Part shown: in pieces, positions 911 through 24,446 of the stretch | How positions within the stretch are numbered: position 1 is the stretch's first letter | Layout: each line of letters starts with the position of its first letter | Source of the DNA: Spirosoma validum | GTDB taxonomy: Bacteria; Bacteroidota; Bacteroidia; Cytophagales; Spirosomataceae | DNA: 64,000 bases | Assembly: GCF_014699035.1 (NCBI RefSeq) | Contig: NZ_JACXAA010000004.1 | Location: 434,001 to 498,000 of the forward strand | Direction: 5' to 3' | Program-made: the position numbers and the translations under genes | Notes under the pieces: model-generated | Seen by the model: only the letters and a program-made list of their open reading frames with translations | Database searches by the model: none | What the model was told of the DNA's origin: nothing

Positions 911-1666
911 ATGCAACCAATAACCGATTCGAAAGTGGTCCTGGTGACCGGTGGTACGCGTGGCATTGGCCGGGCGATCTGCCTCAAGTTAGCGTCGCTG
1001 GGTCATACTGTAGTGTTTACATACATTACCAACGAAGCACTGGCGCAGTCGCTGGTGGAGGAAATCAACGCGATGACCCATGCACCTGTTATGGCTTACC
1101 GCTGTGACATGACCAAACTGCCGGAAGTACAGAAGCTGTTCAAGGAAATCAAAGCGGCCTTCAAACGGGTAGACGCCGTGGTCAACAACGCTGGCATTCT
1201 GGGCGATGGAAAGCCGTTTATGATGTCGCCCGACGCCGACTGGTGGCACGTGTTTCAGACCAACGTATCGAGCGTAACGAATACCTGTCGGGCCGTACTG
1301 GCGACCATGATCAGCCAGCGCAAAGGACGTATTATCAACATTACGTCGTTGTCGGGCCAGAAGGGTAATCCGGGTCAGTCGGCGTATTCGGCCTCTAAAT
1401 CAGCCATTGTTACGTTCTCCCGCTCGCTTTACAAAGAAGTTGGCCAGTTTGGGATTACGGTCAACTGCGTATCGCCCGGCCTGATCGAAACGGATATGAC
1501 GAAGGAACTGAGCGAAGACTATTTCTCGTCGCGGATGTCCAAAACGCCCCTCAAACGCAAAGGCACCCCCGAAGAAGTTGCCAATGTCGTCTCGTACCTG
1601 ATCTGCGAAGCACCGACCTACATGATCGGGCAGGAACTCACCATTGATGGCGGTATCGGCGGTTGA
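911..1666 (+). CDS. 3-oxoacyl-ACP reductase, FabG-like SDR (pathway ketoreductase)
   Basis: A 251-residue classical short-chain dehydrogenase. The nucleotide-binding motif TGGTRGIG is at residues 13-20, NNAG at 92-95, and the Ser146-Tyr159-Lys163 catalytic set is intact; the protein ends with the usual IDGGIGG segment. Enzymes of this type reduce 3-oxoacyl-ACP to 3-hydroxyacyl-ACP with NADPH. Its place directly before a ketosynthase, a FabZ-like dehydratase and a second ketosynthase-like protein, with gaps of 38, 12 and 11 bases, indicates a dedicated copy for a secondary fatty-acyl or polyene pathway rather than the housekeeping fabG. Other SDR substrates are possible in principle, but the context makes ketoreductase the best call. 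Confidence 0.88.
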   Translation: MQPITDSKVVLVTGGTRGIGRAICLKLASLGHTVVFTYITNEALAQSLVEEINAMTHAPVMAYRCDMTKLPEVQKLFKEIKAAFKRVDAVVNNAGILGDGKPFMMSPDADWWHVFQTNVSSVTNTCRAVLATMISQRKGRIINITSLSGQKGNPGQSAYSASKSAIVTFSRSLYKEVGQFGITVNCVSPGLIETDMTKELSEDYFSSRMSKTPLKRKGTPEEVANVVSYLICEAPTYMIGQELTIDGGIGG

Positions 1667-1704
1667 TCATCCCCGTTCCATTCACCCTTAAACAGCCAAT
1701 TCTC

Positions 1705-2925
1705 ATGCGTAAACGAGTAGTCATCACGGGTATGGGTGTCAGTAACTCCATTGCCCGCTCCCGCGACGAGTTTCAGTTGAGCCTGCGCGAAGGACGGTCC
1801 GGTCTGAAACCGATTTCGCCCGACCGCTTCCCAACCGACGCCAATTGCTATGCTAATAAACAGGCCTGTACGCTGGATCAGGATCTGTACGAGTCGCTGA
1901 AAGACGAAGACGAAACCATCTTGTCGCGGCTGTCGATGCTGGTCATGCAGGAAGCCCTCGACGATGCAGGCGTTGACCGCACGCAGGTTCAGAGCGACCG
2001 CGTAGCGTTCTGCACCGCAACAACCATCGGAGGAGCTTATCCATTCATTCGCTGGACGCGCCGACGGCTGGAAGGCAACCTGACGCCCGAAGATTTTGAA
2101 CTGCTTTTCCGTTGTTCAACACCCACGATGATCAGCAAACTTCAGCGGCATTTCGGCTTCAGGGGACCTATTTCGACCATTTCAACCGCCTGTACGTCAG
2201 GCACGAACTCCGTCGGCAGAGCGTTCGATATGATTGCCCACGACCGCATTGATATGGCCCTGGCCGGTGGGGTAGACGTCTTCACGGAATTGACCTTCAG
2301 CGGGTTTAACTCGCTGCAATCGCTGTCCAAAAACATTTGCAAGCCCTTCGATAAAAAACGCGACGGTCTGACACTCGGTGATGCTGCAGCGTATTTAGTC
2401 GTTGAAAGTTTAGACTCAGCGCTGGCAAGAGGTGCCCGGATTTATGCGGAAGTAAAAGGCTATTCCGCCACGAACGAAGCGTACCACCCGACAGCGCCGA
2501 AACCCGATGGCAGCACGGCCTACGAAACCATGATGCATGCGTTACGGCAGGGTGGGGTAGAGGTCGAAGCGGTCGAGTACATCAACGCGCACGGCACTGG
2601 TACCAACGCCAACGATTCGATGGAAATCAACGGCATCCGGCGTCTGGTTGGCGACCGGCCGGTCTTCATCAGCTCCACGAAGTCCATGATCGGGCATACG
2701 CTGGGCGCAGCCGGTAGCGTCGAACTCATTGCTACGGTGCTGGGGATGCACCACGACTTTATTCCGCCGTCCTGCAACACGGGCGAGGCTCTCCTGACCG
2801 ACGACGATAACATCGTATTGGTACGTGACAAGGGGTTGGTCCGGCGGTTTGATACAGCACTGTCGAACTCGTTCGGGTTTGGCGGATGCATGGCTTCTAT
2901 TGTGGTACAACGCTTTGTGGCTTAA
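1705..2925 (+). CDS. Beta-ketoacyl-ACP synthase (active KAS II/FabF-like)
   Basis: A 406-residue thiolase-fold condensing enzyme. The catalytic set is complete: Cys163 in STACTSGTNS, His296 in NAHGTGTN and His331 in KSMIGHTLGAAGS, with the usual glycine-rich end NSFGFGGCMAS. It should carry out decarboxylative condensation of malonyl-ACP with a growing acyl chain in the cytoplasm. I start it at the ATG at 1705, because the TTG at 1663 overlaps the previous stop and adds 14 residues unlike the family. It is followed 12 bases later by the dehydratase. It pairs naturally with the catalytically dead ketosynthase-like protein at 3426, as in KS/chain-length-factor heterodimers of type II systems. 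Confidence 0.9.
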   Translation: MRKRVVITGMGVSNSIARSRDEFQLSLREGRSGLKPISPDRFPTDANCYANKQACTLDQDLYESLKDEDETILSRLSMLVMQEALDDAGVDRTQVQSDRVAFCTATTIGGAYPFIRWTRRRLEGNLTPEDFELLFRCSTPTMISKLQRHFGFRGPISTISTACTSGTNSVGRAFDMIAHDRIDMALAGGVDVFTELTFSGFNSLQSLSKNICKPFDKKRDGLTLGDAAAYLVVESLDSALARGARIYAEVKGYSATNEAYHPTAPKPDGSTAYETMMHALRQGGVEVEAVEYINAHGTGTNANDSMEINGIRRLVGDRPVFISSTKSMIGHTLGAAGSVELIATVLGMHHDFIPPSCNTGEALLTDDDNIVLVRDKGLVRRFDTALSNSFGFGGCMASIVVQRFVA

Positions 2926-2937
2926 CTCCTTACGACC

Positions 2938-3414
2938 ATGACAACAACATTTAAAATCCCTTACCCAAAAGACCTGCTGCCCCACCGGCCGCCCATGCTG
3001 CTCATTGATCGTGTGGATAATTACGACCCAGGGCAGACCGTTCAGGTCAGTTCCTTCATTACCCCCGACAACCGATTCTTCGAAGGGCATTTTCCCGGCG
3101 AACCGATTTTGCCCGGTATTATTCTGGTTGAAATGATGTTCCAGGCTTGCGGTATTTTCGGTCGACTGGAGGGCATGTTCAGTCAGGCCAACAAAACCAA
3201 TACGGCTAACCCCGCGTTACCTGCGGTACGTTCCGGCCGGGCGATCAAGATTGACCGGCTGACGTTCACCCGCGAAGTTCGGGCGAATGACCAGCTGATT
3301 ATTTCTGTGAAACACCGCTTCCAGATCATGAAATACATGGTGTTCGACGCGAAGGTGGAGATTGCGGGTAAAGGAGCCGCTGCCAAAGGAGAAGTAACCG
3401 TTTTAATCGCTTAA
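2938..3414 (+). CDS. 3-hydroxyacyl-ACP dehydratase, FabZ-like hotdog protein
   Basis: A 158-residue single hotdog domain. It shows the FabZ signature: LLPHRPPMLLIDRV near residues 13-26, then FFEGHFPGEPILPG at 47-60 with the catalytic His51, and Glu65 in VEMMFQ, 14 residues later as in FabZ. It should dehydrate 3-hydroxyacyl-ACP to trans-2-enoyl-ACP. An insertion of about 25 residues after the central helix (about 80-105) is longer than in housekeeping FabZ. It is tightly packed between the two ketosynthase genes (12 and 11 bases). No enoyl reductase gene lies anywhere in the surrounding 24 kb, so the double bonds it makes may be kept in the product. Confidence 0.88.
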   Translation: MTTTFKIPYPKDLLPHRPPMLLIDRVDNYDPGQTVQVSSFITPDNRFFEGHFPGEPILPGIILVEMMFQACGIFGRLEGMFSQANKTNTANPALPAVRSGRAIKIDRLTFTREVRANDQLIISVKHRFQIMKYMVFDAKVEIAGKGAAAKGEVTVLIA

Positions 3415-3425: not shown

Positions 3426-4655
3426 ATGTCTGCTAATCAAACTATTGTTTTAACCGGGGGAGGCATCCTGTCGAGCCTCGGCAACGGCGTTGAAACGTTC
3501 TGGCAGAACCTGCTGGCCGATCAGGCGGGCGTTGGTATCCGCGAAGACTGGACGATCCCCGAAATTGGTACTCAGTACTTCGGTACGTGTCAGCCGTTTA
3601 CCTTCACGGAAGCATTTTCTAAACTCAAGCCACCATTTCCGCTTAAGTATTCGCAACTGGCGATGATGGCCTGCCACCTGGCGTTTCAGCACGCGGGACT
3701 GTCGATGGACGAGCTAACCCCCGAACGGGTAGGCCTGCTGCTTGATACGTCGTTCGGTGCCAACGCTGCTGCCGAAGAGTTTCTGATCAAACTGTTCCAG
3801 GCCGGACCCGCCAAGGTTAGCCCCTTTACCTTCACCAAAACGACCGTCAACTGCGCCCTGGGCGACGTAGCGCGGACCTTCGGCATCAAAGGGCCCAGCT
3901 CCATGTCGCTGGGTGAAAACAGTGTCTGCTACGGGTACGATCTGTTGCAGGACGGCAAAGCCGACGTAGTGGTTTGCGGAGGATTCGACGAAGTGCGCGA
4001 GATTACGCTCTGGTCGTACGCCGAGCGAAAGTATCTGCTCTCGCCTAAATCCGACGGGCAACCGGTCGATCTGCCGAACAACACCTCGACCGATAACGAA
4101 GTCATGGTGATGGGTGAAGCGTCGGCCTTTGTCGTGCTCGAAACCCTGGAGCATGCAAAAGCCCGCGGGGCGACCATCTATGCCGAACTGGTTGATTACC
4201 ACGCGCAGAATGACCGGGATTACCGCGAGTTCATGCATACACGTAGTGAAGACGATCTGACCAGTACCATGAACGGCGTGTTACGTCGCAGTAATACGTC
4301 GCCCAGCTCGGTAGGCCTGGTCGTGGGTGGAGCCTGTTTGCCGCAACACCTGAGTGGAGCCGAGGGCAACGCCATTCGACGCATCTGGCCAACGGACGAT
4401 CTGTACTATACGACCCTCAAAGGCCGGATCGGTGAGACGTTCAGTGCCTCGGGAATTGCCTCTCTGCTGACAGCAGCACTGGCCCTGCGCGACAAAGTCG
4501 TACCGGGAACGGGTTACGCTTCGACCGAACCCACCGATGGACTCCGCATACCGGAAACGACAACAACCTACGAAAGCGAGAAAGACTACGCCCTGGTCAA
4601 TTCGTGGCACGCCAGCGGTAACAATGTCAGTCTGTTGCTCAAGCGCGCAGCCTGA
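3426..4655 (+). CDS. Ketosynthase-like protein without catalytic residues (chain-length-factor-like)
   Basis: A 409-residue protein with the same fold and length as the ketosynthase at 1705, but with the whole active site lost. The segment equivalent to the nucleophile (GPSSMSLGENSVC, about residues 156-168) has no Cys at the catalytic position, the HGTGT motif is replaced by ACLPQHLSGAEG, and the second His region reads KGRIGETFSAS. In type II polyketide systems such a partner is the chain-length factor, which forms a heterodimer with the active KS and sets chain length. The strict loss of the Cys-His-His set argues against a decayed duplicate, since the reading frame and the glycine-rich structural parts are intact. 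A non-enzymatic ketosynthase homologue with another role is the alternative. Confidence 0.8.
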   Translation: MSANQTIVLTGGGILSSLGNGVETFWQNLLADQAGVGIREDWTIPEIGTQYFGTCQPFTFTEAFSKLKPPFPLKYSQLAMMACHLAFQHAGLSMDELTPERVGLLLDTSFGANAAAEEFLIKLFQAGPAKVSPFTFTKTTVNCALGDVARTFGIKGPSSMSLGENSVCYGYDLLQDGKADVVVCGGFDEVREITLWSYAERKYLLSPKSDGQPVDLPNNTSTDNEVMVMGEASAFVVLETLEHAKARGATIYAELVDYHAQNDRDYREFMHTRSEDDLTSTMNGVLRRSNTSPSSVGLVVGGACLPQHLSGAEGNAIRRIWPTDDLYYTTLKGRIGETFSASGIASLLTAALALRDKVVPGTGYASTEPTDGLRIPETTTTYESEKDYALVNSWHASGNNVSLLLKRAA

Positions 4656-4727
4656 CCTGGGTACCACGGGCTTCAGCCCGTATCTCATAATAGAGTTTAT
4701 ACGGGCTGAAGCCCGTGGTACCTAGGT
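4656..4727. repeat. REP-like palindrome, copy 1 (GGGCTTCAGCCC type)
   Basis: An inverted repeat immediately after the stop of the chain-length-factor-like gene. The arms contain GGTACCACGGGCTTCAGCCC and its complement and are separated by an AT-rich spacer of about 20 bases. Each arm is itself palindromic around CTTCAG. Three further copies of this element type occur at 9211, 20920 and 33073. It may end transcription or protect the upstream mRNA, and it separates the assembly-line genes from the next two genes. Confidence 0.85.
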
Positions 4728-4759
4728 TAGTCGCGAAGCTCAAAATGCTCATTACCACT

Positions 4760-5455
4760 ATGAACACATCTCTGATTCTCAAAGCCCTGATCATTATCCA
4801 TGCGACGGGAGGTACGTTGGCTCTTGCGTCCGGACCGGTCGCTATGCTGACGAAGAAAGGCAGCACGCCCCATCGCCGGGCCGGGCGAGTGTATGTCTGT
4901 AGCATGGCCGTTGTGTTCGTCACGGCGGTTGTCGTGGCCTACGTCAAAAGTCTGGCGTTTCTGTTCATGATTGCCTTTTTTAGCTTTTATCTGGTATTGG
5001 CAGGCTATCGGGCGCTGAAGCTGAAAAAGCTACACCTGGGTCAGCAGCCCACCTGGATAGACTGGGCGTTACAGGGCGGAGCGGGTTTGTTTGCCATAGC
5101 ACTGGCTGAGTGGGGCATCTATACCTGGTTGCAGGGTGATACCTTCGGGATCGTGGCGATTGTCTTTGGGGCCGTTCTTTTGTGGCGAACCAGCCATGCC
5201 GCTCTGCGGTTCGTGCACCCACCCGAAGATCCCAAATACTGGTTGTATACCCACATCGCCGGTATGTGCGCCGGATACATCGCTACTCTGACCGCTTTTC
5301 TGGTTGTCAATAATCATTTCCTGCCGGGCGTTGTCGCCTGGTTGTTGCCAACCGCCGTTGGAACGCCCTTGATCATTCGGGCCATCCGCCGGGTACGTAA
5401 CGCCAGTGCTGTCAACCGACCCGTTGTTTCTGAACTAACCTCGTCTCCCTCATGA
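4760..5455 (+). CDS. DUF2306-type membrane protein
   Basis: A polytopic inner-membrane protein of about 231 residues with seven or so hydrophobic helices. The N-terminal pattern IIHATGGTLALASGPVAML, followed by KKGSTPHRRAGRVYV, fits the DUF2306 family, which has conserved histidines and no established biochemical role. The start at 4760 is my choice; an ATG at 4745 would add five residues, and an upstream GTG lies inside the REP palindrome and is unlikely. Its stop overlaps the start of the acyltransferase gene (ATGA at 5452-5455), so the two are translationally coupled and probably work in the same process, for example in membrane handling of the acylated product. That role is inference. Confidence 0.75.
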   Translation: MNTSLILKALIIIHATGGTLALASGPVAMLTKKGSTPHRRAGRVYVCSMAVVFVTAVVVAYVKSLAFLFMIAFFSFYLVLAGYRALKLKKLHLGQQPTWIDWALQGGAGLFAIALAEWGIYTWLQGDTFGIVAIVFGAVLLWRTSHAALRFVHPPEDPKYWLYTHIAGMCAGYIATLTAFLVVNNHFLPGVVAWLLPTAVGTPLIIRAIRRVRNASAVNRPVVSELTSSPS

Positions 5456-6657
5456 TCCCACTTGAAACCTCCGTCGGGTTGAAGTCCGAGACATTTGCCC
5501 GTCGCTACTTAGCCGATTACACTACGTTGCAGGAACGGATTCTGGCGCGGGAACGGCAGAAAATGGCCCTACACCAGACCAAAGACTGGGTGTTCGTATC
5601 GACTAACCTGACCAATTTTATGCCTGAACTGCCCATGTCAGACCATGAGCGGATTTATTTACAGGTCGTGGTCAATCACGCGGCTCGCGCCCACGACCGG
5701 CAACTGGTCGACGACCGCGCCGTGGATTATCTTCAGCCCGAAGGCAACCTGACGTTCCTGGAACCTGCGGAGAAACGAAAACCAAAGATTTTCTGCACGT
5801 ATCATTTGGGGTCATACCAAAGTATCGTCGGGATTCTGGCCCGCGAAGGCATCGACATGGCGATGGTCGTAGATACCAATACAGTTCAGAAACAAAGCGA
5901 GGAAACAATCAAAACCGTTTCCCGGATCAATGAACTGAATAACGTATCGTCGCGGATGCGGATATTGGATGCTGAGCGGCCCGACATCGGTATCTGCATG
6001 GCGCAGGCGTTGCGGCAGGGCTATTCGATCGTGATTTACATCGACGGCAATTCCGGTACGGGCGGTATCTACAAACGCGGTCCCAAAACGCTGATGGTGC
6101 CTTTCCTGAACCAGGAACTCTGCTCCCGAACCGGTATCGCGCTGACATCCTTCGCGCTGAAAGTTCCTATTATCCCGATGGTGTCGTACTACGAATGGAT
6201 CAACGGTTCGCGGACTCCCCGGTTCCTGTTTTTCGATCCGATTGCGCCAGCATCCGGCGTCGTCCAGACGGACTACGTAGCGGATACGACCCGATCGCTG
6301 TATGCACTGCTGGAAACCTACCTCCGCCGGTACGTCGATCAATGGGAAAGCTGGCTGTACGTGCACAAATTTCTGGATTTCGACAGCTTGAGTAAAGGGC
6401 AGCAGTCGGCGTATGCCAGTGACGTAGCGAATGATGACCGGGTGTATTTTCAGGAAAATCGGTACGGCTTATTTAAGATGGACGTAACGTCCTACCTAAT
6501 GGACAAACGGACCTACCGCATCGTTGCCATCCACGCCGATCTGTTCAGCATACTCCAGGATCTCCGGCAGCCGCAGCTATTGAGCGACGTAACAAACCGA
6601 TTGACGTCAACGACGTTGGCACAACTGGTTGAGCGCGGTATTCTAGCAAAAGTCTGA
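5452..6657 (+). CDS. LpxL-like acyltransferase with C-terminal PqqD/RRE-like domain
   Basis: A 401-residue protein with two parts. Residues about 45-305 resemble LpxL/HtrB-type lysophospholipid acyltransferases: the HxxxxE/D motif appears as HLGSYQ (118-123) with His118 kept and the acidic residue replaced by Gln, then GGIYKRGPKTLMVPFLN (204-220) and a PIIPMVSYYE strand (239-248). Residues about 333-401 do not belong to that family. They read like a PqqD-type winged helix: a beta hairpin (DVTSYLMDKRTYRIVAIH), a helix (ADLFSILQDL) and a final helix ending VERGILAKV. Such domains are RiPP recognition elements that bind leader peptides. I infer transfer of an acyl chain from the carrier protein to a ribosomal peptide. 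Lipid acylation with an unrelated C-terminal tail is the alternative. Confidence 0.75.
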   Translation: MIPLETSVGLKSETFARRYLADYTTLQERILARERQKMALHQTKDWVFVSTNLTNFMPELPMSDHERIYLQVVVNHAARAHDRQLVDDRAVDYLQPEGNLTFLEPAEKRKPKIFCTYHLGSYQSIVGILAREGIDMAMVVDTNTVQKQSEETIKTVSRINELNNVSSRMRILDAERPDIGICMAQALRQGYSIVIYIDGNSGTGGIYKRGPKTLMVPFLNQELCSRTGIALTSFALKVPIIPMVSYYEWINGSRTPRFLFFDPIAPASGVVQTDYVADTTRSLYALLETYLRRYVDQWESWLYVHKFLDFDSLSKGQQSAYASDVANDDRVYFQENRYGLFKMDVTSYLMDKRTYRIVAIHADLFSILQDLRQPQLLSDVTNRLTSTTLAQLVERGILAKV

Positions 6658-6856: not shown

Positions 6857-9211
6857 ATGAACGCGAAACGACGGAGAGAAAGCCTATGGGTGAGTTTGCT
6901 GAGTATACTAACCCTGACGGTTCAGGCGCAGACCCAAACCGGACGAGGACGTATTACGGATACGCAATCGGGAGCAGGCGTACCACTGGCTACGGTTCAG
7001 GTTCTGGATGAACCCACGATTGGCGCTACCGCCGACTCTACAGGAACGTATCGGCTAAGCCAGGTGCCGCTGGGACGACACACGCTGAAAATTACGTCCG
7101 TTGGCTACGGTGATCAGGTTATACCGGACGTATTGTTTACGGCGGGTAAAGAAACCAGCCTGGACGTACCGATGACCGAACGGGTGCAAACGGCGCAGGA
7201 AGTGCAGGTGTACGCCCAACGACCGCTGGATGCCATTGACAAAACCCTGGCCGTAACGGGTGCCCACGTATTCGACATGGAACAGACCCGCCGGTTTGCG
7301 GGCAACCGAAATGATCCATCGCGAATGGCGATGAACATGGCGGGGGTGGTGGGGAACAACGATTCACGAAACGACATCGTCATCCGGGGGAATTCACCAA
7401 CGGGATTACTCTGGCGCGTTGAAGGCATTGACATTCCCAATCCGAACCATTTTGGAGCGATGGGCAACACGGGTGGTCCCGTACCCATTCTGAACTCGAA
7501 CGTGATCGACCGATCGGTGTTTCTGACCGGCGCCTTTCCCGCCGAATACGGCAATGCGGTTTCGGGCGTGTTCGACATCCGGCTCCGTAACGGCAATCCG
7601 GATAAACGCGAATATACCGTTCAGGCGGGATTTAACGGTTGGGAACTAGGTGCGGAAGGCCCTTTTTCGAAAGGATCGCAGGCGTCGTATCTGGCTCACT
7701 ACCGCTACTCGTTCCTTCAGCTATTTCAGGCGCTGGGCATCAATTTAGGTACCGGTTCGGCTCTGCCGCAGTATCAGGATGCGGTTTTTAAAGTTCGATT
7801 GCCACTAGGCAAAGCCGGAGAGATTGCCGTGTTTGGCATGGGCGGCACCAGCCGGATTACCTTCGAGGACGAGCCCGTCACCAATACGTTATACCCGCAG
7901 GGTGGTGAGTATTCGACCTACAACACGAAAATGGGCGTCGTTGGCCTGACACATACCTACTCCTTCGGCCCTGGTACGTCATTGCGGACAACACTGGCGG
8001 CTACCGGCAACTCTGTTCAGGCCGTGACCGATTCCATTACCAGCGATCGACGCCACTACGCGCAGTACGGCGACGGATCGAGTCAGTACAAGTACACGGT
8101 GCATAGTCAGTTCAATCGGAAGATCAGCGCGAAAAGCCGGTTTGGTGCGGGGGTTATTCTATCGTATCTGGGCGTAAACTATGCCGACAGTACGCGCGAA
8201 ACAGGGCAGTTTCATTACCTGCGTCATACGACCGGTCAAACCGGGCTGGTACAGACGTACGGATTCTGGCAGGGTCGCCCATCGGATCGCTGGGTACTTA
8301 ATGCGGGGGTATATCACCAGTGGCTGGCGCTGACGCAGCAGCATTCGGTAGAGCCGCGTCTGAGCGCTCGTTACCAGCTTAACCAAAAACAATCCTTATC
8401 CCTGAGTGTCGGTCGGCACAGCCAGGTGGGCCCTTTGCAGGTGTTCTTCAACCAGCAAGACCAACCTGATGGAACTGAAACGATGCCAAATCAGCACCTG
8501 GGTTTTGTCTTTAGCAATCAGGCCGTACTGGGGTATACGCGCTGGCTGGGGAAGCAAACCTCGCTGACTGTCGAAGCGTATTATCAGGCGTTGCAGAACG
8601 TACCGGTGTCGCCAACGAGTCCGTCGTATTCGCTGCTCAATACGGGCACCGACTTCCTGACGCCTTCCGCTACAGGTCTGACCAACGGGGGGAGTGGCTG
8701 CAACTATGGTCTGGAATTGACCCTGGAACGCACGTTCAGCCGCAATTACTACGTAATGGCAACCGTCTCGGCCTTTGACAGCCGTTACCGAGGCAGCGAT
8801 GGCGTGTTACGGAATACCCTGTTCAACAACCAGTGGGCCGGTAATTTTCTGACCGGCGGGGAGTGGAAGATCAGTCGTAAAACAACCCTGGTCGCTGATT
8901 TGCGCGTGGCGGTGGCAGGGGGTAAACGCTATACACCCGCTGACCTGAGTGCGTCGCAGCAGACCGGTACGCTGGTTGAGCAAACGAACCAGGCCTTTGA
9001 GGGACAATTTCCAGCCTATGGCCGATTAGACGGTAAACTAACACTACGGGTGAACGGCAAACACGCCATGCGGGAATGGTACTTCGATCTAAATAACCTG
9101 ACCAACCGACGCAACATTTACTCGCAGTATTACAGTCCATCAACCGGACAGGTTCGCTACTCGTACCAATTAGGTCGATACCCGGTTTTCGGTTACCGAA
9201 TCCTGTTTTAG
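6857..9211 (+). CDS. TonB-dependent outer-membrane receptor with N-terminal CarboxypepD-regulatory-like domain
   Basis: A 784-residue outer-membrane protein. A signal peptide (about residues 1-24, ending VQA) is followed by a carboxypeptidase-regulatory-like beta sandwich (about 28-115), a plug domain with the signature DIVIRGNSPTGLLWRVEGID (about 175-195), and a long beta-barrel rich in aromatic/glycine strands that ends with RYPVFGYRILF, a typical C-terminal barrel strand. Such receptors move large substrates across the outer membrane with TonB energy. No SusD partner is present. Its position among acyl-assembly genes suggests transport or recognition of the locus product, for example re-uptake of the lipopeptide, but that is context only. 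A second receptor of the same type lies at 22239. Confidence 0.9.
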   Translation: MNAKRRRESLWVSLLSILTLTVQAQTQTGRGRITDTQSGAGVPLATVQVLDEPTIGATADSTGTYRLSQVPLGRHTLKITSVGYGDQVIPDVLFTAGKETSLDVPMTERVQTAQEVQVYAQRPLDAIDKTLAVTGAHVFDMEQTRRFAGNRNDPSRMAMNMAGVVGNNDSRNDIVIRGNSPTGLLWRVEGIDIPNPNHFGAMGNTGGPVPILNSNVIDRSVFLTGAFPAEYGNAVSGVFDIRLRNGNPDKREYTVQAGFNGWELGAEGPFSKGSQASYLAHYRYSFLQLFQALGINLGTGSALPQYQDAVFKVRLPLGKAGEIAVFGMGGTSRITFEDEPVTNTLYPQGGEYSTYNTKMGVVGLTHTYSFGPGTSLRTTLAATGNSVQAVTDSITSDRRHYAQYGDGSSQYKYTVHSQFNRKISAKSRFGAGVILSYLGVNYADSTRETGQFHYLRHTTGQTGLVQTYGFWQGRPSDRWVLNAGVYHQWLALTQQHSVEPRLSARYQLNQKQSLSLSVGRHSQVGPLQVFFNQQDQPDGTETMPNQHLGFVFSNQAVLGYTRWLGKQTSLTVEAYYQALQNVPVSPTSPSYSLLNTGTDFLTPSATGLTNGGSGCNYGLELTLERTFSRNYYVMATVSAFDSRYRGSDGVLRNTLFNNQWAGNFLTGGEWKISRKTTLVADLRVAVAGGKRYTPADLSASQQTGTLVEQTNQAFEGQFPAYGRLDGKLTLRVNGKHAMREWYFDLNNLTNRRNIYSQYYSPSTGQVRYSYQLGRYPVFGYRILF

Positions 9212-9334: not shown

Positions 9335-9766
9335 ATGAAAATCAATCTATTCCTGGCCACGATGCTGGCAATGACGGTAAGCTTTGCGAAAGCGGATGAA
9401 CCCAAGCGCAAATCAGAAGGCCCTAAGTACACCGTAACGGTGACGCTCAAAAATTTTAAAGGAGATGAAGGAAAGGCGTATGTCCGGCTGCTCGATGCCA
9501 ACGAAAAACCCCTGCTGGCCAAAACCGTTACAGTTCAGGGTCAAAAAGCCACGCTGACGTTCGATAACCTGACGGGTGGCCAATACGCGATTAAATTCTA
9601 TCAGGACGAAAATGGAAATGGTGAACTGGACCGGGGTATGTTCGGAATTCCGACCGAAAGCTGGGGTGTTTCGAACGATGTCGATGCGTCCTTTGGTCCA
9701 CCGGCTTTTGCTGCTACGTTGTTCGAGGTGAAAACCAACCGCAATATCGTCATCAACGCGAAGTAA
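9335..9766 (+). CDS. DUF2141 family secreted protein
   Basis: A 143-residue secreted protein with a signal peptide (about residues 1-20, MKINLFLATMLAMTVSFAKA) and a single beta-sandwich domain. The segments LTGGQYAIKFYQDENGNGELD and GMFGIPTESWGVSND are the hallmark of DUF2141: a conserved aspartate-rich DENGNGELD loop followed by GIP..GYGFSN-like text. The biochemical role of the family is unknown; members are often found near outer-membrane receptors or biosynthetic genes in Bacteroidota. It is flanked by a REP palindrome upstream and a hairpin downstream, so it may be transcribed alone. Confidence 0.85.
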   Translation: MKINLFLATMLAMTVSFAKADEPKRKSEGPKYTVTVTLKNFKGDEGKAYVRLLDANEKPLLAKTVTVQGQKATLTFDNLTGGQYAIKFYQDENGNGELDRGMFGIPTESWGVSNDVDASFGPPAFAATLFEVKTNRNIVINAK

Positions 9767-14712: not shown

Positions 14713-15828
14713 CTAAAGCGAAAGGGACTCATAAGCGGGAACAGCATCAAACTGAACCCGTATTTCTGCACTGAACTCGTCGGTTGCGTCGGTAACTGTA
14801 AACGTCTGGTTATGAGCATAGGTTAGGTACAAACGTCTCCGCGTGTTGGTCAGGCCGACGCGCGTTGACGGTTCGAGTTGCTCTACGTCTTTTTTTCGGT
14901 TACTGGTGTAGAAATAAAATGAGTTAGCGTCGGCATGGATTCGGATGATGAGCGGATGCTCGGCGGAAGTCAGATCACCGTATTTGAACGCATTCTCGAT
15001 AAGCGACATGAGTACCAACGGTAAAAACTTTAACTGGTCGAACCACTCTTCGCCTTTCACCTCCATGTCGATATGCAGGCCATCCTCAAAACGCTGCTTT
15101 TGCAAATACAGGTAATTATTCAGGTGCTCGACCTCCTGACTTAAGGTTACGGGAGCTTCGTGTTCAGGGTGCGATAAGGAATAGCGCATCATTTCTGATA
15201 AAACCATCACCGACCGCGCCAGTCTCGGCGACGTATCCATTGCTTCGGCATACAGGAAATTTAGGGTATTGTACAGAAAATGCGGGCTAATCTGCGATTT
15301 GAGGTACGCCATCACCGCCTGGCTATGCTGCTGCTCGATCACTAGTTTCTGCTGAAGAATCTTCGTGCGCTCCTTCGCCAGTCGCAGGCTTTGCAGGACG
15401 TACCAGTACCCGTAGCTGAACAGAGTAAAGTTGACGTAGATCCAGAACGTCTCCACAAAAAAGTTGCTGGCCCCGAAAAGCGAGGTAAAGGGTACGCCAA
15501 TCGCCGGTAGTACGCGCCAGAAAATGAACTGGCGACACAGCACATACCCACCCAGCAGCAAGATCGTACCGATGATCAGTTTCCCATAGCGTTTGGTCGT
15601 TAAGTATCGGTCCAGCAGGACGTGGGCATTGATGTAAAACAGGGCGATCACCAGGCCATAGGTCAGCACGGTACGTTTAAGTACGGCTACCGGATCGACC
15701 CGATGGTCGAAAAATGTCAGCACGTTACCATACAGAAAATACAGGAACCAGAACGCTACGTGCCAGAGTACACGCTGCCAGCGGGTCGGAATTCGATAAA
15801 AAAAAGAGGGTTGCTTCACGTTCTGCAA
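14713..15828 (-). CDS. LytS-type sensor histidine kinase
   Basis: A 371-residue membrane kinase. Four hydrophobic helices occupy about residues 15-150, then a coiled segment leads to the His_kinase domain with SQISPHFLYNTLNFLYAEA (phospho-acceptor His in SPHF, about residue 182) and an ATPase part with LMSLIENAFKYG. No periplasmic sensor domain is visible, so it probably senses within the membrane. It forms a pair with the LytTR regulator. Its 5' end faces the lanthipeptide-like peptide gene across 143 bases, an arrangement used by peptide-sensing systems; sensing of that peptide is inference. Confidence 0.9.
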   Translation of the reverse strand: MQNVKQPSFFYRIPTRWQRVLWHVAFWFLYFLYGNVLTFFDHRVDPVAVLKRTVLTYGLVIALFYINAHVLLDRYLTTKRYGKLIIGTILLLGGYVLCRQFIFWRVLPAIGVPFTSLFGASNFFVETFWIYVNFTLFSYGYWYVLQSLRLAKERTKILQQKLVIEQQHSQAVMAYLKSQISPHFLYNTLNFLYAEAMDTSPRLARSVMVLSEMMRYSLSHPEHEAPVTLSQEVEHLNNYLYLQKQRFEDGLHIDMEVKGEEWFDQLKFLPLVLMSLIENAFKYGDLTSAEHPLIIRIHADANSFYFYTSNRKKDVEQLEPSTRVGLTNTRRRLYLTYAHNQTFTVTDATDEFSAEIRVQFDAVPAYESLSL

Positions 15829-18011: not shown

Positions 18012-18305
18012 ATGAACGATCTGTTCACCATCAAAGAGCGCGTTAAGGAAGTCGTAACCGACATTCTGAGCGTAGAGGATGCCTCGATCACCGAAATCGA
18101 CGACAACACGCCCTTCTTCGGAACCGATGAAAATCCCGGCATCATTCAGGATTCGCTGGCTATCCTGGAGATCTCATCCCGCCTGGCCGAAGAGTTTGAC
18201 ATCCTGCCGTCCGACTTCAACGAAGACAGCTTTCAGAACGTCGAAACGCTCAGCGCAATGATCCTGGAGAAAGTTCAGGAAAATGCCCCGGTGGAGGCTA
18301 ACTAA
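18012..18305 (+). CDS. Acyl carrier protein of the locus
   Basis: A 97-residue acidic four-helix carrier protein. The phosphopantetheine site is the Ser in GIIQDSLAILEISSRLAEEF (about residues 40-59; DSL motif at 44-46), preceded by FFGTDENPG and followed by the recognition helix. It should carry the growing acyl chain for the ketosynthase pair at 1705/3426 and be activated by the Sfp-type enzyme at 11307. It is the only carrier protein in the window. It sits 64 bases upstream of the first precursor peptide gene and shares its upstream AACCCTTA-like leader, which ties the acyl machinery to the peptides. Confidence 0.88.
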   Translation: MNDLFTIKERVKEVVTDILSVEDASITEIDDNTPFFGTDENPGIIQDSLAILEISSRLAEEFDILPSDFNEDSFQNVETLSAMILEKVQENAPVEAN

Positions 18306-18369: not shown

Positions 18370-18522
18370 ATGTCTGTTAACACAAATCCCCAGGAACAAC
18401 TTTCTTTCGAAATCGAAAACGAACTGACGATTGTTGAACTCGAAGAGCGTTTCGAACTGACCGCAGCCGCTTTAGACACGGATCGTTGCAGCGGCAACAG
18501 CGGCCAACTACAAGCCGTGTAG
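18370..18522 (+). CDS. RiPP-like precursor peptide 1 (long-tail type)
   Basis: A 50-residue peptide, first of five paralogues. An acidic, variable N-terminus is followed by the shared block LTIVELEERFELTAAALD (residues 19-36) and a short core with the invariant Arg39-Cys40-Ser41, then GNSGQLQAV. Conserved leader, short Cys-containing end, tandem paralogy and proximity to RRE-bearing enzymes are the marks of RiPP precursors. Apart from the Arg in the leader block, Arg39 is the only arginine, so it is the natural target of the arginase at 20998. I know no named family with this leader. Confidence 0.8.
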   Translation: MSVNTNPQEQLSFEIENELTIVELEERFELTAAALDTDRCSGNSGQLQAV

Positions 18523-18576: not shown

Positions 18577-18729
18577 GTGGTAAAAGACACAAAGGCCCAG
18601 GACCAACTTTCCTTCGATCTAGAGAACGAATTGTCAATTGTTGAACTCGAAGATCGCTTCGAATTAACGGCCGCTGCTATGGATTCAGCCCGTTGCAGCG
18701 AGAACAGCGGGCAACTGCAGGCTTCGTAA
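18577..18729 (+). CDS. RiPP-like precursor peptide 2 (long-tail type, GTG start)
   Basis: A 50-residue peptide with the same length and layout as peptide 1: SIVELEDRFELTAAAMD in the leader, Arg39-Cys40-Ser41, then ENSGQLQAS. The start codon is GTG at 18577; no ATG precedes the leader block in frame, and the GTG gives exactly the length of peptide 1. It lies 54 bases after peptide 1, in the same orientation. The pair differs from peptides 3-5 by its QLSF N-terminal block and the SGQLQA tail. Confidence 0.78.
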   Translation: MVKDTKAQDQLSFDLENELSIVELEDRFELTAAAMDSARCSENSGQLQAS

Positions 18730-18843: not shown

Positions 18844-18984
18844 ATGGAAGAAAACAAGACGATCGCCCCTGAGCAAACGCCTGAATCACTGGTTGAAGCG
18901 CTGACGGTTATTGAACTCGAAGAGCGTTTCGAATTAACGGCTGCTGCTTTAGATTCAGCTCGTTGCAGCGGTAACAAACGCTAA
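18844..18984 (+). CDS. RiPP-like precursor peptide 3 (short-tail type)
   Basis: A 46-residue peptide. The N-terminus MEENKTIAPEQ differs from peptides 1-2 but matches peptides 4 and 5. The leader block is TVIELEERFELTAAALD, followed by SARCSGNKR. The invariant Arg40-Cys41-Ser42 is kept, and it alone ends with an extra Arg. A 114-base gap separates it from peptide 2. Confidence 0.8.
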   Translation: MEENKTIAPEQTPESLVEALTVIELEERFELTAAALDSARCSGNKR

Positions 18985-19126: not shown

Positions 19127-19270
19127 ATGGAAGAAAATAAGACATTCGCCCCCGAACAAATCGTTGAATCAGTAGCTGAAGCGCTAACCGTTGTTGAACT
19201 CGAAGAACGCTTCGAACTGACCGCAGCTGCTTTAGACTCAGCTCGTTGCAGCGGTAACAAAGTCAAGTAA
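19127..19270 (+). CDS. RiPP-like precursor peptide 4 (short-tail type)
   Basis: A 47-residue peptide, close to peptide 3 in both protein and DNA sequence: MEENKTFAPEQ at the start, TVVELEERFELTAAALD in the leader, then SARCSGNKVK. A 142-base gap upstream, AT-rich just before the start, could hold its own promoter. The DNA of the leader block is almost identical among copies, pointing to recent duplication or strong constraint. Confidence 0.8.
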   Translation: MEENKTFAPEQIVESVAEALTVVELEERFELTAAALDSARCSGNKVK

Positions 19271-19299: not shown

Positions 19300-19440
19300 A
19301 TGGAAGATAAGAAAGTTACCTCGCCTGAGCACGCGAACGAGTCGCTTGTTGAAGCCCTGTCGATCGTTGAACTCGAGGAGCGCTTTGAATTGACGGCTGC
19401 TGCGCTGGATGCTGCCCGCTGCAGCAACAATAAAGTTTAA
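19300..19440 (+). CDS. RiPP-like precursor peptide 5 (short-tail type)
   Basis: A 46-residue peptide, last of the array. The start is MEDKKVTSPEH, the leader block SIVELEERFELTAAALD, and the core AARCSNNKV. It begins 29 bases after peptide 4 and is followed by a strong terminator at 19584. Gly after Cys-Ser is replaced by Asn, so the position after RCS tolerates change (Gly, Glu, Asn among the five) while Arg, Cys, Ser and the second Asn do not. Confidence 0.8.
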   Translation: MEDKKVTSPEHANESLVEALSIVELEERFELTAAALDAARCSNNKV

Positions 19441-19616: not shown

Positions 19617-19647
19617 CTCCGATTGATCATTCTTCTACTTGAACCGT

Positions 19648-20910
19648 ATGCAACTGGCTTCCTATACAATCGAGGAAATGGAAACCGCGGCCGGTGGCCC
19701 CCGCCATTTTCTGTTGACCGTTAATGAAAAACCCTACCGAGTGGGGGAACTCCTGTGCGTCATCCTTCAGCACATAGCCGAACGGCGCTCATCGGCCGAC
19801 ATTGTACCCCTGCTCAATGGCTGGGCGGCCGGTCGTCACGTGTTCACGGCGCAGGAGGTAGACCAGATTATTGAACATAAAATTCGACCACTCGGCGTTT
19901 TCAATACGTCGGTGTCGGCCAGCCCAACCCTGACCGATACGCACCGGCTCAATGGCGTTCGCTGGCGCAAAACATTGCTTCGGTATACACAGATGCGCTG
20001 GGCACTGATCGGGCTGCAATGGCTCTTTACACCAGCCGTATTCTGGCCCCTACTGGCCGTAATGGTCGGGGCAAATTATTACTACATGAACAGTCTGATT
20101 GCCGCCGAAAAATACGTGGAAACCTACGCAGCTGCGAACAAAGACTGTTTGAAAGACATTAGCTATTTTGCTCTATTCTACCCAATTATCCTGCTGACGC
20201 TGCTCATTCACGAGGTTGGGCACGCAGCTGCGAGCTACCGGTTTGGCGTGAAACCCAAAGACATTGGGTTTGGTGTGTACTTAGTTTTCCCAGTGCTCTA
20301 TGCCGACGTAACGGGCATCTGGCGACTGAACAAGCATAAGCGGGCCATCGTCAATCTGGCCGGTATCTTTATGCAGTTATTGATCAACATCGGTTTGATC
20401 TGGTATACGTACCACGCCGACGCCAACATTGACGTCATCACCACCTTCCGGTACCTGTTGCATATCAACGTCAGCATCATGCTTATCAACAGCATTCCGT
20501 TTCTGATGTTCGACGGCTACTGGCTCTATAGCGACCTGTTCGGGCTGCCCAATTTACAAAAACAGGCCAGCGCGGTATTTCTGAAATACACCAAGAAAAT
20601 CATCCCTCAGATACCTTATTCGCTACCACCCCAGGCGGAGAAAATGATCAACTTTCGCAACCCTCTGTTGCTGACGTATACAGCCGGCCGTTACTTGTTT
20701 CTGGCGTATTTTATTGCGTATGGTTTCGGCATATTTGCGAAGACCATCGCTAACCTGCCCTCCGTATTTTACCAGATATACATCGATTTTTCGGTTTGCT
20801 CCATCGAACCGTTTCTGCAATCCTCGCTAACGGTCGGTATGTTCGGCTACTTCTTTGCCCAGTATTCACGAACAGGTCGCCAGGTCTTTCGTACCATCCG
20901 TAAAGCCTAA
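19648..20910 (+). CDS. Membrane M50 metalloprotease with RRE-like N-terminus
   Basis: A 420-residue polytopic membrane protein. The zinc site HEVGH (188-192) lies in a membrane helix, and the second motif NSIPFLMFDG (281-290) gives the conserved Asp, so it is a site-2-protease-type (M50) peptidase with all key residues. Residues about 18-85 precede the first helix and look like a PqqD-type winged helix (RHFLLTVNEKPYRVGELLCVILQHI, then a later helix). Similar M50 proteins occur in RiPP operons, where they are thought to cleave or export modified peptides. I take the ATG at 19648; an in-frame TTG at 19639 adds three residues. Leader removal from the precursor peptides is the likely job, by inference. 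Confidence 0.82.
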   Translation: MQLASYTIEEMETAAGGPRHFLLTVNEKPYRVGELLCVILQHIAERRSSADIVPLLNGWAAGRHVFTAQEVDQIIEHKIRPLGVFNTSVSASPTLTDTHRLNGVRWRKTLLRYTQMRWALIGLQWLFTPAVFWPLLAVMVGANYYYMNSLIAAEKYVETYAAANKDCLKDISYFALFYPIILLTLLIHEVGHAAASYRFGVKPKDIGFGVYLVFPVLYADVTGIWRLNKHKRAIVNLAGIFMQLLINIGLIWYTYHADANIDVITTFRYLLHINVSIMLINSIPFLMFDGYWLYSDLFGLPNLQKQASAVFLKYTKKIIPQIPYSLPPQAEKMINFRNPLLLTYTAGRYLFLAYFIAYGFGIFAKTIANLPSVFYQIYIDFSVCSIEPFLQSSLTVGMFGYFFAQYSRTGRQVFRTIRKA

Positions 20911-20997: not shown

Positions 20998-22242
20998 ATG
21001 GAATCGAACCTAATAAGGCAACCTCACGTCCGTTCGCCATACATCGACATGGAGTCGACCGGAACGGGTAAACTGAAAATACATAATCAGCTTTCGGGCC
21101 GGGCGTTTGAAGTGGGCGAGGGGATCGGTAAGATTCTTCGCTTCTACGACGCACCCCGCTCATTCGACGAGGTAGCCGAACAGTTTCCGCTCTACGGAAA
21201 TAAGCTGGGCGTAGTCTGTCAATACCTGACTGATCAACGATTGATCTTTCCGGCCGACGATCCGGCCGAGCTGGTGACCGACCGGGTGGCCGTGGCTCCC
21301 CGGCTATTCGACGCGCAACCGTTGACAGAGTCGGACGTAACAACGCCTGTGGCGGTTTGTCTGGGCGTACCGTTTGGGAAAGGAAACGGGAAATCAATGG
21401 GTTCGGCCGAATTCCCGCAGACCATCCGGGCTTATACACAACGGTATGGCTTGGCAACAAATCGGTTAGCTCAGTCGCTGAGCTGTGGTGCGGTGGGGAA
21501 TGCGGACGTAACGGATCGACTGAAGAAGCTATTTAAGGCGGATCGGTTCCGCGATGGCGGGAATCTGTTCGTTAGTGCGCTCGAATCCCCGGCGTTCATA
21601 TACGAGAAGTTGTATGCCGTGGCTCGGAAACTGCTTCGGCAGGGACACGTACCCGTGACCATCGGGGGTGATCATTCGATCAGCTACCCGCTGATCCGGG
21701 CCGCTGCCGAGACGTATCCAAATCTACACGTCCTGCATTTCGACGCCCATACGGATACGTACTCGTCGCGCTACGATGCTCTACCACACGCGGGACGTAT
21801 TCATCACTACGGCAACTTCATGAGTTACTGCCTGGCCCTGCCGACCGTAGCCAAAGTGTACCAGTTCGGTATTCGCGGACTGACCAATGCCTGCGAACAG
21901 GACACCGCTAAACGCCAGATCATCTGGGCCGATGAAGCCCGCACGGTTACCCTCGATCTGCCCAATGACGTACCGTATTACGTTACGTTCGACATCGACG
22001 TACTGGACCCATCGGTAGCACCCGGTACAGCGTCTCCCGTTGCCAATGGCCTGACATACGCCGAAACAACCGCCCTGTTCGAGCGACTGCTTCCCGGCAA
22101 GCGAATCATCGGACTTGACCTGGTAGAAATGAATCCTGATTTCGACCGTACGGAACTGACGACTGAAGTTGCCGTGAGTATTCTGCTTCAATTGCTGAGT
22201 TACATACCGCTAATGTCCTGCTCTAAACCCGACTCCGTATGA
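20998..22242 (+). CDS. Peptide-arginase candidate: RRE-like domain fused to an arginase-family enzyme
   Basis: A 414-residue two-part protein. Residues about 15-90 form a PqqD/RRE-like winged helix (YIDMESTGTGKLKIHNQLSGRAF, a helix IGKILRFYD, then a helix ending TDQRLIFPAD). Residues about 115-405 are a complete ureohydrolase: GGDHS (223-227), DAHTD (249-253) and FDIDVLDPSVAPG (331-343), which give all manganese ligands. Arginases free in RiPP loci are known to turn peptide arginine into ornithine (OspR-type). Here the leader-binding domain is fused on, which points to a peptide substrate, most likely the invariant Arg of the precursor cores. Its stop overlaps the receptor start (ATGA). Agmatinase or free-arginine activity is the alternative, less likely with this fusion. 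Confidence 0.85.
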   Translation: MESNLIRQPHVRSPYIDMESTGTGKLKIHNQLSGRAFEVGEGIGKILRFYDAPRSFDEVAEQFPLYGNKLGVVCQYLTDQRLIFPADDPAELVTDRVAVAPRLFDAQPLTESDVTTPVAVCLGVPFGKGNGKSMGSAEFPQTIRAYTQRYGLATNRLAQSLSCGAVGNADVTDRLKKLFKADRFRDGGNLFVSALESPAFIYEKLYAVARKLLRQGHVPVTIGGDHSISYPLIRAAAETYPNLHVLHFDAHTDTYSSRYDALPHAGRIHHYGNFMSYCLALPTVAKVYQFGIRGLTNACEQDTAKRQIIWADEARTVTLDLPNDVPYYVTFDIDVLDPSVAPGTASPVANGLTYAETTALFERLLPGKRIIGLDLVEMNPDFDRTELTTEVAVSILLQLLSYIPLMSCSKPDSV

Positions 22243-24446
22243 AAACGACTTTATTCTGGCTGAGCGTACTCGTCTGGTTTCCGCTGGTTGCCCATAGCCA
22301 GACGACCATAACCGGCCTCATCAGCGACAAAAAAGGACGACCTCTCCCTGGTGCCAGTGTTGGCATATTGGGTGGATATGACGGTGCTATGACGGCTGAC
22401 AATGGTACGTTCTCGTTCAGTACGAGCGAGAAGGGATCTACAAGAGTACGGCTACAGATGTTGGGATTCCAGTCGCGCGATACGTTGCTGACGCTGGGTC
22501 AATCAGGAAATGTGGCGCTGAACCTTCAACTGAGCGACGTTTCGGTAGCATTGAACGAGGTACAGGTAAAAAGTAAGGGCAACGATTTTCTGTCGAAAGG
22601 GGGGACGCTCTCTCTACAGGCGCTTGATGTTCGGGCGATGGGCGGCTCCAACGCCGACATTGCGAATGCCTTCCGAACGCTGCCTGGTGTGCAACCGGTG
22701 ACGAACGCAACGGGATTGTTAGTACGGGGTGGTTCCGGCGACGAAACGAAAGTATTTATCGATGGCATGCAGGCCAATAATTTCTTCTACACCGGTAGTC
22801 CGGACGTATCGCAGCGCGGTCGTTTCAACCCCGATCTGTTTGAAGGCAACTTCTTCAGCAGCGGGGGATATTCAGCGCTGTACGGGCAGGCTCTTTCGTC
22901 AACGCTCATTCTGGATACGCGCAATCTTCCAGCACAATCGTCGGTCAATGCGGCTATTAATTCCACCGGCGGTACGCTCGATGCGACCCATCTCATGGCC
23001 CGTCAGCGCCAGGCAATCAGTGCATCGGTGAACTACATGAACATGAGCCCGTATTACCAACTGGTTCCCCAGCGACGCGATTTTACCGAAGGGCCGTCTT
23101 TCCTGGATATGACCGTGAACGTTCGGAAACAATTTCGCCGGCAGGATATGCTGAAGTTGCTCAGTTCCTACGGGCAAAATAACGTAGCGTTTACCATGCC
23201 AAATGTAGACCGGGCCAATGTTCGGGATTATTATCGATTGCAAAGCCGGAATGTCTATAACAATCTGACGTACAGTAGTTTTTTAGGGCGAGGAATTCAC
23301 CTGCACGCGGGATTTGCCTTTAGCCTGGCCAGCACAACGTATCAATCGGACACGCTGATGCAAATTGACGCCAAAAGTCCGAACCGCGCCCTGCCCGAAC
23401 GCCAGGTCCTGCTGGGATCGTATCAGGGGCGGGTGGTGCTGCGCAAGGTAATCAATCCGAATACGGACATATATATTGGTGCAGAAACCCAGCTGACGAC
23501 GGATACCTACGCCCGTGCCTACGCGGGTCGGTCACGTCAGGATCTGGTGAATGGGCAATACGTAGCGGCCTTTGCCGAAACAAATCTTACGGTACAGGAA
23601 CGGTGGAACGCCCGGCTGGGCGTTCGTCTGGAACATCAGTCATTGCTGTCTGGAACGAATCTGTCGCCCCGAGCAACGGTAAATTATCGGTTGGCCAAAC
23701 AGGAGAAATTGTTTGTTAGCTACGGTCAGTTTTTTCAGACACCGGATACGCAATGGCTCATCAACAGGACCAGTCCCAATGACCGGCTTCAGGCGCAGAA
23801 GGCAACGCATTATATTGTTGGCTACCTCCGCGAACGCGCCGGGTCGATTATCCGGCTGGAAGCTTTTTACAAAACCTATAACCGACTGCTTCGTACGACC
23901 GATACGTCGACAACGGGTCAAGGCTACGCGCAGGGTATCGAAGCATTCTGGCGCAATAAATCGCTTATCAAAAACGGTGATTTCTGGCTGTCGTATGCTT
24001 ATCTGGATACCAAACGACAATATCTAACCTATCCGGTAATGGCTCAACCAAACTTTGCGGCCCGGCACGTAGCGTCGGCAGTCATGAAGAAATACCTGAC
24101 CGGCCCTGCTCTAAGTGTTGGATTAACCTACACCTATGCATCGGGTCGACCGTATTACAATCCCAGTCAACCGGTTTCCGAATTTATGACCGATCGGACG
24201 GCGGATTATCATAACCTGGGCGTAACGCTCGCGCATTTAACTCGCTTCCTGGGATCAAATGCCCTGTGGGTGATGTCGGCAAATAATCTGTTGGGTAGCC
24301 AGCAAATATTTGATTACCAGTATTCAACGATCGACCCCAGCCGACGGCAGGCCGTTACGCCGTTAGCCTCCCGCTTTTATTACGTAGGGTTGTTCCTGAG
24401 CTGGGGAATCGATAAGCGCCAGAAAACTATTGACGACCTTCTTTAA
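22239..24446 (+). CDS. TonB-dependent outer-membrane receptor, coupled to the arginase gene
   Basis: A 735-residue receptor with a signal peptide (about residues 1-20, ending AHS), a carboxypeptidase-regulatory-like domain (about 24-100, ITGLISDKKGRPLPGASVG), a plug with LPGVQPVTNATGLLVRGGSG and FIDGMQANN (about 148-185), and a barrel that ends with FYYVGLFLSWGIDKRQK, 10-15 residues longer than a typical final strand. Its start codon lies inside the arginase stop, so both are made from one message; this is a strong link to the peptide pathway. Transport of the mature lipopeptide, or of its metal or lipid complex, across the outer membrane is a fair guess. No TonB or ExbB is in the window. Confidence 0.88.
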   Translation: MKTTLFWLSVLVWFPLVAHSQTTITGLISDKKGRPLPGASVGILGGYDGAMTADNGTFSFSTSEKGSTRVRLQMLGFQSRDTLLTLGQSGNVALNLQLSDVSVALNEVQVKSKGNDFLSKGGTLSLQALDVRAMGGSNADIANAFRTLPGVQPVTNATGLLVRGGSGDETKVFIDGMQANNFFYTGSPDVSQRGRFNPDLFEGNFFSSGGYSALYGQALSSTLILDTRNLPAQSSVNAAINSTGGTLDATHLMARQRQAISASVNYMNMSPYYQLVPQRRDFTEGPSFLDMTVNVRKQFRRQDMLKLLSSYGQNNVAFTMPNVDRANVRDYYRLQSRNVYNNLTYSSFLGRGIHLHAGFAFSLASTTYQSDTLMQIDAKSPNRALPERQVLLGSYQGRVVLRKVINPNTDIYIGAETQLTTDTYARAYAGRSRQDLVNGQYVAAFAETNLTVQERWNARLGVRLEHQSLLSGTNLSPRATVNYRLAKQEKLFVSYGQFFQTPDTQWLINRTSPNDRLQAQKATHYIVGYLRERAGSIIRLEAFYKTYNRLLRTTDTSTTGQGYAQGIEAFWRNKSLIKNGDFWLSYAYLDTKRQYLTYPVMAQPNFAARHVASAVMKKYLTGPALSVGLTYTYASGRPYYNPSQPVSEFMTDRTADYHNLGVTLAHLTRFLGSNALWVMSANNLLGSQQIFDYQYSTIDPSRRQAVTPLASRFYYVGLFLSWGIDKRQKTIDDLL

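Follow-up and report, generated by a model that had tools for sequence, protein, structure and literature searches.

Arginase and acyltransferase genes co-occur with adjacent residues of short precursor peptides in a candidate ribosomal lipopeptide cluster of Spirosoma validum

A stretch of 64,000 nucleotides from the 8.2 Mb genome of Spirosoma validum (contig NZ_JACXAA010000004.1, positions 434,001 to 498,000; hereafter the window) holds a set of genes whose combination raises a question: what is made by an acyl assembly line encoded alongside five short peptides, an LpxL-like acyltransferase, an arginase and an M50 protease, and which peptide residue receives the acyl chain? An earlier interpretation made from the letters alone (the sequence-only reading) had proposed one pathway to a ribosomally synthesized and post-translationally modified peptide (RiPP), in which the arginase converts Arg to ornithine and the acyltransferase acylates that ornithine. 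We find that the arginase tracks an Arg before Cys in the peptides, and that the acyltransferase tracks the Cys. We assign a probability of roughly one half to the reading that the product is a ribosomal lipopeptide whose chain is placed on the Cys, with the adjoining ornithine or Lys as neighbour or relay acceptor. The genes on which this argument turns are as follows.

5452..6657, plus strand: acyltransferase of LpxL/PatA fold, with a C-terminal domain resembling the RiPP recognition element (RRE) at about 6436-6654
18370..18522, plus strand: precursor 1, core ..DTDRCSGNSGQLQAV
18577..18729, plus strand: precursor 2, GTG start
18844..18984, plus strand: precursor 3, core ..DSARCSGNKR
19127..19270, plus strand: precursor 4
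19300..19440, plus strand: precursor 5
19639..20910, plus strand: M50 protease (PF02163, 2.8e-8), N-terminal RRE-like domain at about 19639-19932, likely removes the leader
20998..22242, plus strand: PF00491 arginase, N-terminal RRE-like domain at 20998-21291, likely converts Arg to ornithine

A leader ending in (I/V)(V/I)ELE(E/D)RFEL is common to the five precursors, whose short cores contain RCS. Short genes of this kind, with a shared leader and a variable core, number five in the window and 82 in 18 arginase clusters including the window; the counts include identical copies within one cluster (six in L011), and several of the open reading frames (ORFs) begin upstream of the likely start. 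The Arg-Cys precursors gave no match in Pfam (one scanned) or NCBIfam (two scanned), NHLP and Nif11 leaders included, though peptides this short may escape such models. The six identical genes of L011, from Pedobacter sp. PAMC26386, lie in tandem at 13422-14700.

The sequence-only reading had named among its checks a search for the same combination in other genomes. The acyltransferase query against genome contigs gave 33 loci at first and, after extension, 18 clusters with acyltransferase, M50 protease, arginase and precursors. The gene set recurs in other Bacteroidota, and absence from relatives, which that reading had listed as evidence to the contrary, was not seen. In even genome draws at E 1e-25, 3 of 395 genomes from the phylum (S. 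validum's own among them) and 41 of 390 from the order have the acyltransferase. Three clusters are weaker: a contig end cuts short the acyltransferase of L064; the acyltransferase of G913 (L104, 5891-6972) is split over two reading frames, by error or decay; and L009 has its arginase, M50 protease and acyltransferase on separate contigs of a single metagenome-assembled genome. Where loci of one genome overlapped, they were counted as one. Outside the precursor counts are L006 and L007, whose contigs yielded no precursor; L012 and L021, which missed the filter on motif or E-value; L076 and L085, with an M50 protease but no precursor passing the filter; and L015-L020, L022-L030, L033, L035, L040, L041, L043-L049, L051/L069, L053, L054 and L086-L103, which have other peptide families or in which no peptide was sought. 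Another RiPP-like family, with an M50 protease and precursors carrying EELEERLENxW, occurs at L074, L077, L079, L081, L082 and L083, where no acyltransferase or arginase match was found within the DNA examined.

The arginase and the residue ahead of the Cys come and go together. All 82 precursors of the 18 arginase clusters carry [RK]C (79 RC, 3 KC only), and none of the 15 precursors of six arginase-free clusters with acyltransferase and M50 protease does (Fisher test, 7.4e-6, relatedness ignored). Those six genomes hold no such arginase genome-wide at E 1e-25 or 1e-20; their clusters keep the acyltransferase and have Val, Leu, Ser, Ala or Asn ahead of the first Cys. On the acyltransferase tree the arginase changes three times and [RK]C likewise three times, and both independent pairs on supported branches are concordant, two being too few for a sign test to reach significance. 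In one Spirosoma genome (G314, locus L038), 45 bases separate the end of the M50 gene from the receptor gene; Spirosoma relatives have the arginase there, no trace of it is left, and all three precursors read SAVC instead of SARC, with Val for Arg. G314, which has lost both arginase and Arg, keeps the ketosynthase (KS), chain length factor (CLF), ketoreductase (KR), dehydratase (DH), acyl carrier protein (ACP), acyltransferase, M50 protease and Cys; the acyl machinery is maintained there without arginase. This pattern supports the Arg of RC as the likely substrate of the arginase, giving ornithine. Of our single claims this is the best supported, by co-occurrence, and it agrees with what the sequence-only reading had proposed for this enzyme.

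The acyltransferase, for its part, is found with the Cys. A core Cys is present in 96 of 97 precursors of 24 acyltransferase clusters; in eight M50 clusters of this family that lack the acyltransferase, 6 of 11 precursors have it, two of these as KC. Counted by cluster, every precursor has Cys in 23 of 24 versus 3 of 8 (Fisher test, 0.0015, counts entered by hand). A second short-peptide family (MKKxFxIK...) lies directly upstream of orphan acyltransferase genes at 31 of 33 loci inspected; our pattern, which was built from peptides already seen, picked up none upstream at L090 and L096. Cys is in all 30 distinct strings of this family, some of which are start-extended forms of one gene, and Arg stands directly before it in one, L087 (RCC). 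Neither an M50 nor an arginase match came from the orphan loci with longer flanks (L015, L016, L020, L022-L025, L040, L041, L043-L047, L053). Of 36 Spirosoma genomes searched, 35 have an orphan-type homologue, 27-30% identical to the window's enzyme, which would point to a lipopeptide of general role in the genus; the orphan peptide was seen in 15 of the 17 of those genomes whose neighbourhood was inspected. At G000:C2:206248-207545 (L045, minus strand) the genome of the window itself has a second acyltransferase gene (9248-10360 of L045), adjoining a 56-aa Cys-Cys peptide (10375-10545) in which no Arg precedes the Cys. A third precursor family lies directly upstream of an LpxL-like gene in Flavobacteriaceae (L027, L029, L030), with peptides of the form MKI..IRSQI..DL..F..FLA.. 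that carry CC or SC motifs (CCGG..CC or SCSNSC).

What the two enzymes are can be judged from their families and predicted structures. The acyltransferase has the LpxM/PatA fold and, as modelled, belongs with the LPLAT fold. The HX4(D/E) dyad of LpxL and LpxM is not kept: His is present in 53 of 53 rows, and the acid position is substituted (R 40, Q 4, K 3, S 2, N 2 and G 1 in the 52 rows listed). LpxL relatives O-acylate hydroxyls. The arginase shows the fold and the Mn-ligand His/Asp set of PF00491 ureohydrolases; PF00491 matches 39 of 39 relatives, and PF12640 matches 4 of 39 weakly (best 0.057). No GNAT acyltransferase was found among the 20 window proteins scanned.

All three maturases, moreover, appear to carry domains of a leader-binding type. 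The sequence-only reading had seen PqqD- or RRE-like domains in two or three enzymes and would have given way had neither acyltransferase nor arginase shown an RRE fold. A predicted model and profile comparison support such a domain on the acyltransferase, the arginase and, most weakly, the M50 protease, where each is predicted to hold the leader. The C-terminus of the acyltransferase resembles the RRE fold by structure model comparison, so that an RRE-type winged-helix domain on a maturase, as in RRE-dependent RiPP pathways, is present. Matches to PqqD (PF05402) are few: 1 of 38 acyltransferases (0.19), 2 of 21 M50 N-termini (0.001) and 1 of 18 arginase N-termini (0.024). Compared with the PDB, the M50 N-domain profile gave no chain below E 0.17 and none recognised as RRE. 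The structures 8VPO, 3DEE and 6OM4 are among those employed for verifying RRE hits in PMC12710340, which describes many new RRE fusions and in whose main text the words 'acyltransferase' and 'arginase' are absent.

Which chain is available for transfer depends on the assembly line, whose genes are these.

911..1666, plus strand: FabG-like KR (PF13561, 1.3e-60)
1663..2925, plus strand: KS with its active-site Cys and the two His (PF00109/PF02801, alignment)
2938..3414, plus strand: FabA/FabZ-like hotdog DH (PF07977, 5.2e-19)
3426..4655, plus strand: CLF-like KS homologue without catalytic Cys/His (PF00109, 6.1e-19, alignment)
9858..11294, plus strand: AMP-forming acyl ligase, likely for starter loading (PF00501, 2.7e-50)
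11307..11978, plus strand: Sfp-type phosphopantetheinyl transferase (PF01648, 2e-5, at its cut-off)
12050..12778, plus strand: type II thioesterase (PF00975, 1.1e-33)
18012..18305, plus strand: ACP (PF00550, 0.0018, weak)

A KS with catalytic residues and a CLF without them, together with KR, DH and ACP, have the make-up of a type II polyketide synthase (PKS) or polyene line, and the KS matches the ketosynthase 6kxd (6e-62), which we take to be the ishigamide KS. No enoyl reductase was found among the 20 scanned proteins, from which we infer that the chain is probably a polyene. KS, CLF, KR, DH and ACP occur together in 11 clusters (the window, L001-L005, L008, L036, L038, L071 and L072), and in relatives, too, an ACP homologue lies immediately upstream of the precursors. 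The KS/CLF-like pair, KR, DH, ACP, Sfp, ligase, thioesterase, five precursors, M50 protease, arginase and acyltransferase are all confirmed where the sequence-only reading had placed them, and its claim of one pathway uniting RiPP and acyl line gains support from the 11 clusters with both and from the ACP upstream of the precursors; its contrary, that acyl genes and precursors never co-occur, did not come true. At L010, L011, L013, L014 and L084, precursor, M50 protease, arginase and acyltransferase are present with no acyl line within the DNA examined; the acyltransferase there may therefore draw on chains from primary metabolism.

We infer the following course. The ligase would load a starter on the ACP, and KS/CLF, KR and DH would extend the chain without an enoyl reductase. 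The leader (h..ELEeRfE) would be held by putative binding to the RRE-like domains, the arginase would convert the R of RC to ornithine, and the Cys thiol would receive the locus-made chain, probably a polyene, which the acyltransferase would take from the carrier protein. Where ornithine or Lys adjoins the Cys, the chain may shift to the amine by an S-to-N relay. The M50 protease would then cut the leader, perhaps with export; the M50 protease EpeP offers a precedent for cleavage and export (PMC10885120).

Since Cys is common to nearly all acyltransferase-linked peptides, including two other families, direct acylation of ornithine is not the simplest reading, and the earlier proposal that the LpxL-like enzyme acylates ornithine becomes less likely as stated, given that G314 and five further arginase-free clusters have Cys without Arg. 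The proposal survives as the main rival: the arginase makes ornithine, and the acyltransferase directly N-acylates the ornithine or Lys side chain, as in selidamides. The coupling of Arg and arginase speaks for it, as does N-acylation of ornithine and Lys elsewhere (PMC12703449 and PMC13060382), but the acyltransferase is retained in arginase-free clusters where Val, Leu, Ser, Ala or Asn precedes the first Cys, G314 keeps KS, CLF, KR, DH and ACP besides, and the orphan pairs have Cys with no Arg directly before it save the RCC of L087. We hold this rival to be rather unlikely. Several observations do weigh against acylation of the Cys. L021, with acyltransferase and M50 protease, has a precursor-like peptide without Cys, and one of the three precursors of L075 has none either; Lys replaces Arg in 3 of the 82 precursors of arginase clusters; and in the genome of L012, where no such arginase was found, the peptide ends in IIIKCFSPDPL, with an amine retained at the place of Arg. 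The Lys variants favour direct N-acylation, and suggest that an amine next to the Cys matters where present.

The acyl group might instead go to another site: the N-terminus exposed once the leader has been cut off, as in lipolanthines, or, for example, a core Ser or Thr. The hydroxyl acylation of LpxL relatives would suit the latter. The former has its parallel in lipidated lanthipeptides (PMC13060382), but a leader-binding-type domain on the acyltransferase fits action before cleavage, and no core Ser or Thr is, by eye, as constant as the Cys; we therefore regard another site as improbable. It is also conceivable that the locus holds two neighbouring pathways, one for a polyene acid or pigment and one for a RiPP unrelated to it, as the five clusters with the peptide set and no acyl line would allow. 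Against this, the acyl line accompanies the peptide set in 11 clusters, the ACP is directly upstream of the precursors, and the acyltransferase itself carries an RRE-like domain, so that two separate pathways seem very improbable. Cys acylation with a possible relay thus remains our preferred reading.

The remaining genes of the region, whose plus-strand order is broken by a minus-strand regulator pair, are listed here.

4715..5455, plus strand: DUF2306-like membrane protein (Pfam match below cut-off), close to some related clusters
6857..9211, plus strand: presumably a TonB-dependent receptor-like protein, with homologues in some Spirosoma clusters
9335..9766, plus strand: DUF2141 protein (PF09912, 3.4e-25)
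13963..14697, minus strand: LytTR response regulator
14713..15828, minus strand: histidine kinase (PF06580, 2.4e-23)
22239..24446, plus strand: what we take to be a TonB-dependent receptor-like protein, which follows the arginase in several relatives

The M50 protease also matches the daptide M50 model (6.3e-27), under that model's cut-off. The LytTR/histidine kinase pair may regulate the cluster or sense its product. At E 1e-30 each genome holds 4 to 21 relatives of the window's LytTR protein. Of 14 other genomes searched, five (G822, G921, G773, G771, G776) have the best relative at the RiPP cluster and two (G779 and G782) the second-best; in the remaining seven neither sits there (in G255 the best is about 20 kb away). 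Next to the Runella orphan pair L015 are a LytTR gene and one for a LuxR-type response regulator, and Spirosoma orphan pairs have, by eye, similar regulator neighbours; a signalling role is our guess. Divergent from the regulator pair, window positions 15972-17254 hold a lanthipeptide-leader-like ORF (15972-16103; class I leader model NF038153, 0.013, below cut-off) and then a weak LanC-like protein (PF05147, 0.019), set apart from the Arg-Cys precursors; a LanC-like gene is close to the histidine kinase/LytTR genes also in L004, L007, L011 and L075. Positions 17278-17828 hold a small ORF with MRTTKNAFDMALSQRTDYWMPSNND and a helix-turn-helix gene, which has relatives in L002, L003, L036 and L038.

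If our reading is true, evolution has co-opted a lipid A-type acyltransferase fold for RiPP maturation, leader-binding-type domains sit on three unrelated enzymes of one pathway, an extra enzymatic route leads to lipidated ribosomal peptides, and a discrete type II polyketide line is tied to a ribosomal peptide in Gram-negative bacteria. The joint loss of arginase and Arg in G314 is a natural experiment, and the order and site of acylation are testable with a handful of genes. The system would be a new variant of lipidated RiPPs and possibly a new class. More tentatively, at somewhat less than even odds, the LpxL fold with an RRE would define a class of Cys-acylated lipopeptides (thioester or S-to-N relayed) with at least three unrelated precursor families, whose two-gene form would be core to Spirosoma and probably a signal beside LytTR, and whose most elaborate form would be that of the window, with a polyene line and an arginase setting ornithine next to the lipidated Cys.

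How does this compare with known systems? A literature search, with most subscription journals outside its reach, found no LpxL-type enzyme acting on a RiPP. Selidamides (kamptornamide, phaeornamide; nostolysamides) share a ribosomal peptide with a lipid on, or here predicted near, ornithine or Lys. They use GNAT acyltransferases and NHLP/Nif11 leaders (PMC13060382), whereas here we find the LpxL/PatA fold and a short ELEeRfE leader; known peptide arginases are mostly PF12640 (PMC12703449), whereas this one is PF00491 with an RRE-like domain, beside its own KS/CLF line. The outline is alike, and the acyltransferase and arginase families differ.

To our knowledge, the enteropeptin system has no acyl line. 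Its arginase KgrD is likewise a PF00491 enzyme that acts on a peptide Arg beside Cys (PMC12703449). KgrD requires a thiomorpholine, whereas no radical SAM enzyme is among the genes scanned here. Lipolanthines, goadvionins and lipoavitides also join an acyl chain, of PKS or fatty acid synthase origin, to a ribosomal peptide. In those systems GNATs acylate a lanthipeptide N-terminus (PMC13060382), and here no lanthionine synthetase is among the window genes scanned beyond the weak LanC-like one. DAG-RiPPs (DybA) are lipidated on a conserved Cys (PMC12636315), as is predicted here, but by the general lipoprotein pathway and from a signal-peptide precursor, whereas the present acyltransferase is cluster-encoded and bears an RRE-like domain. 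Finally, the type II polyene synthases of ishigamide and aryl polyenes share KS/CLF, KR, DH and ACP with this locus, and differ in that here the chain is predicted to end on a peptide.
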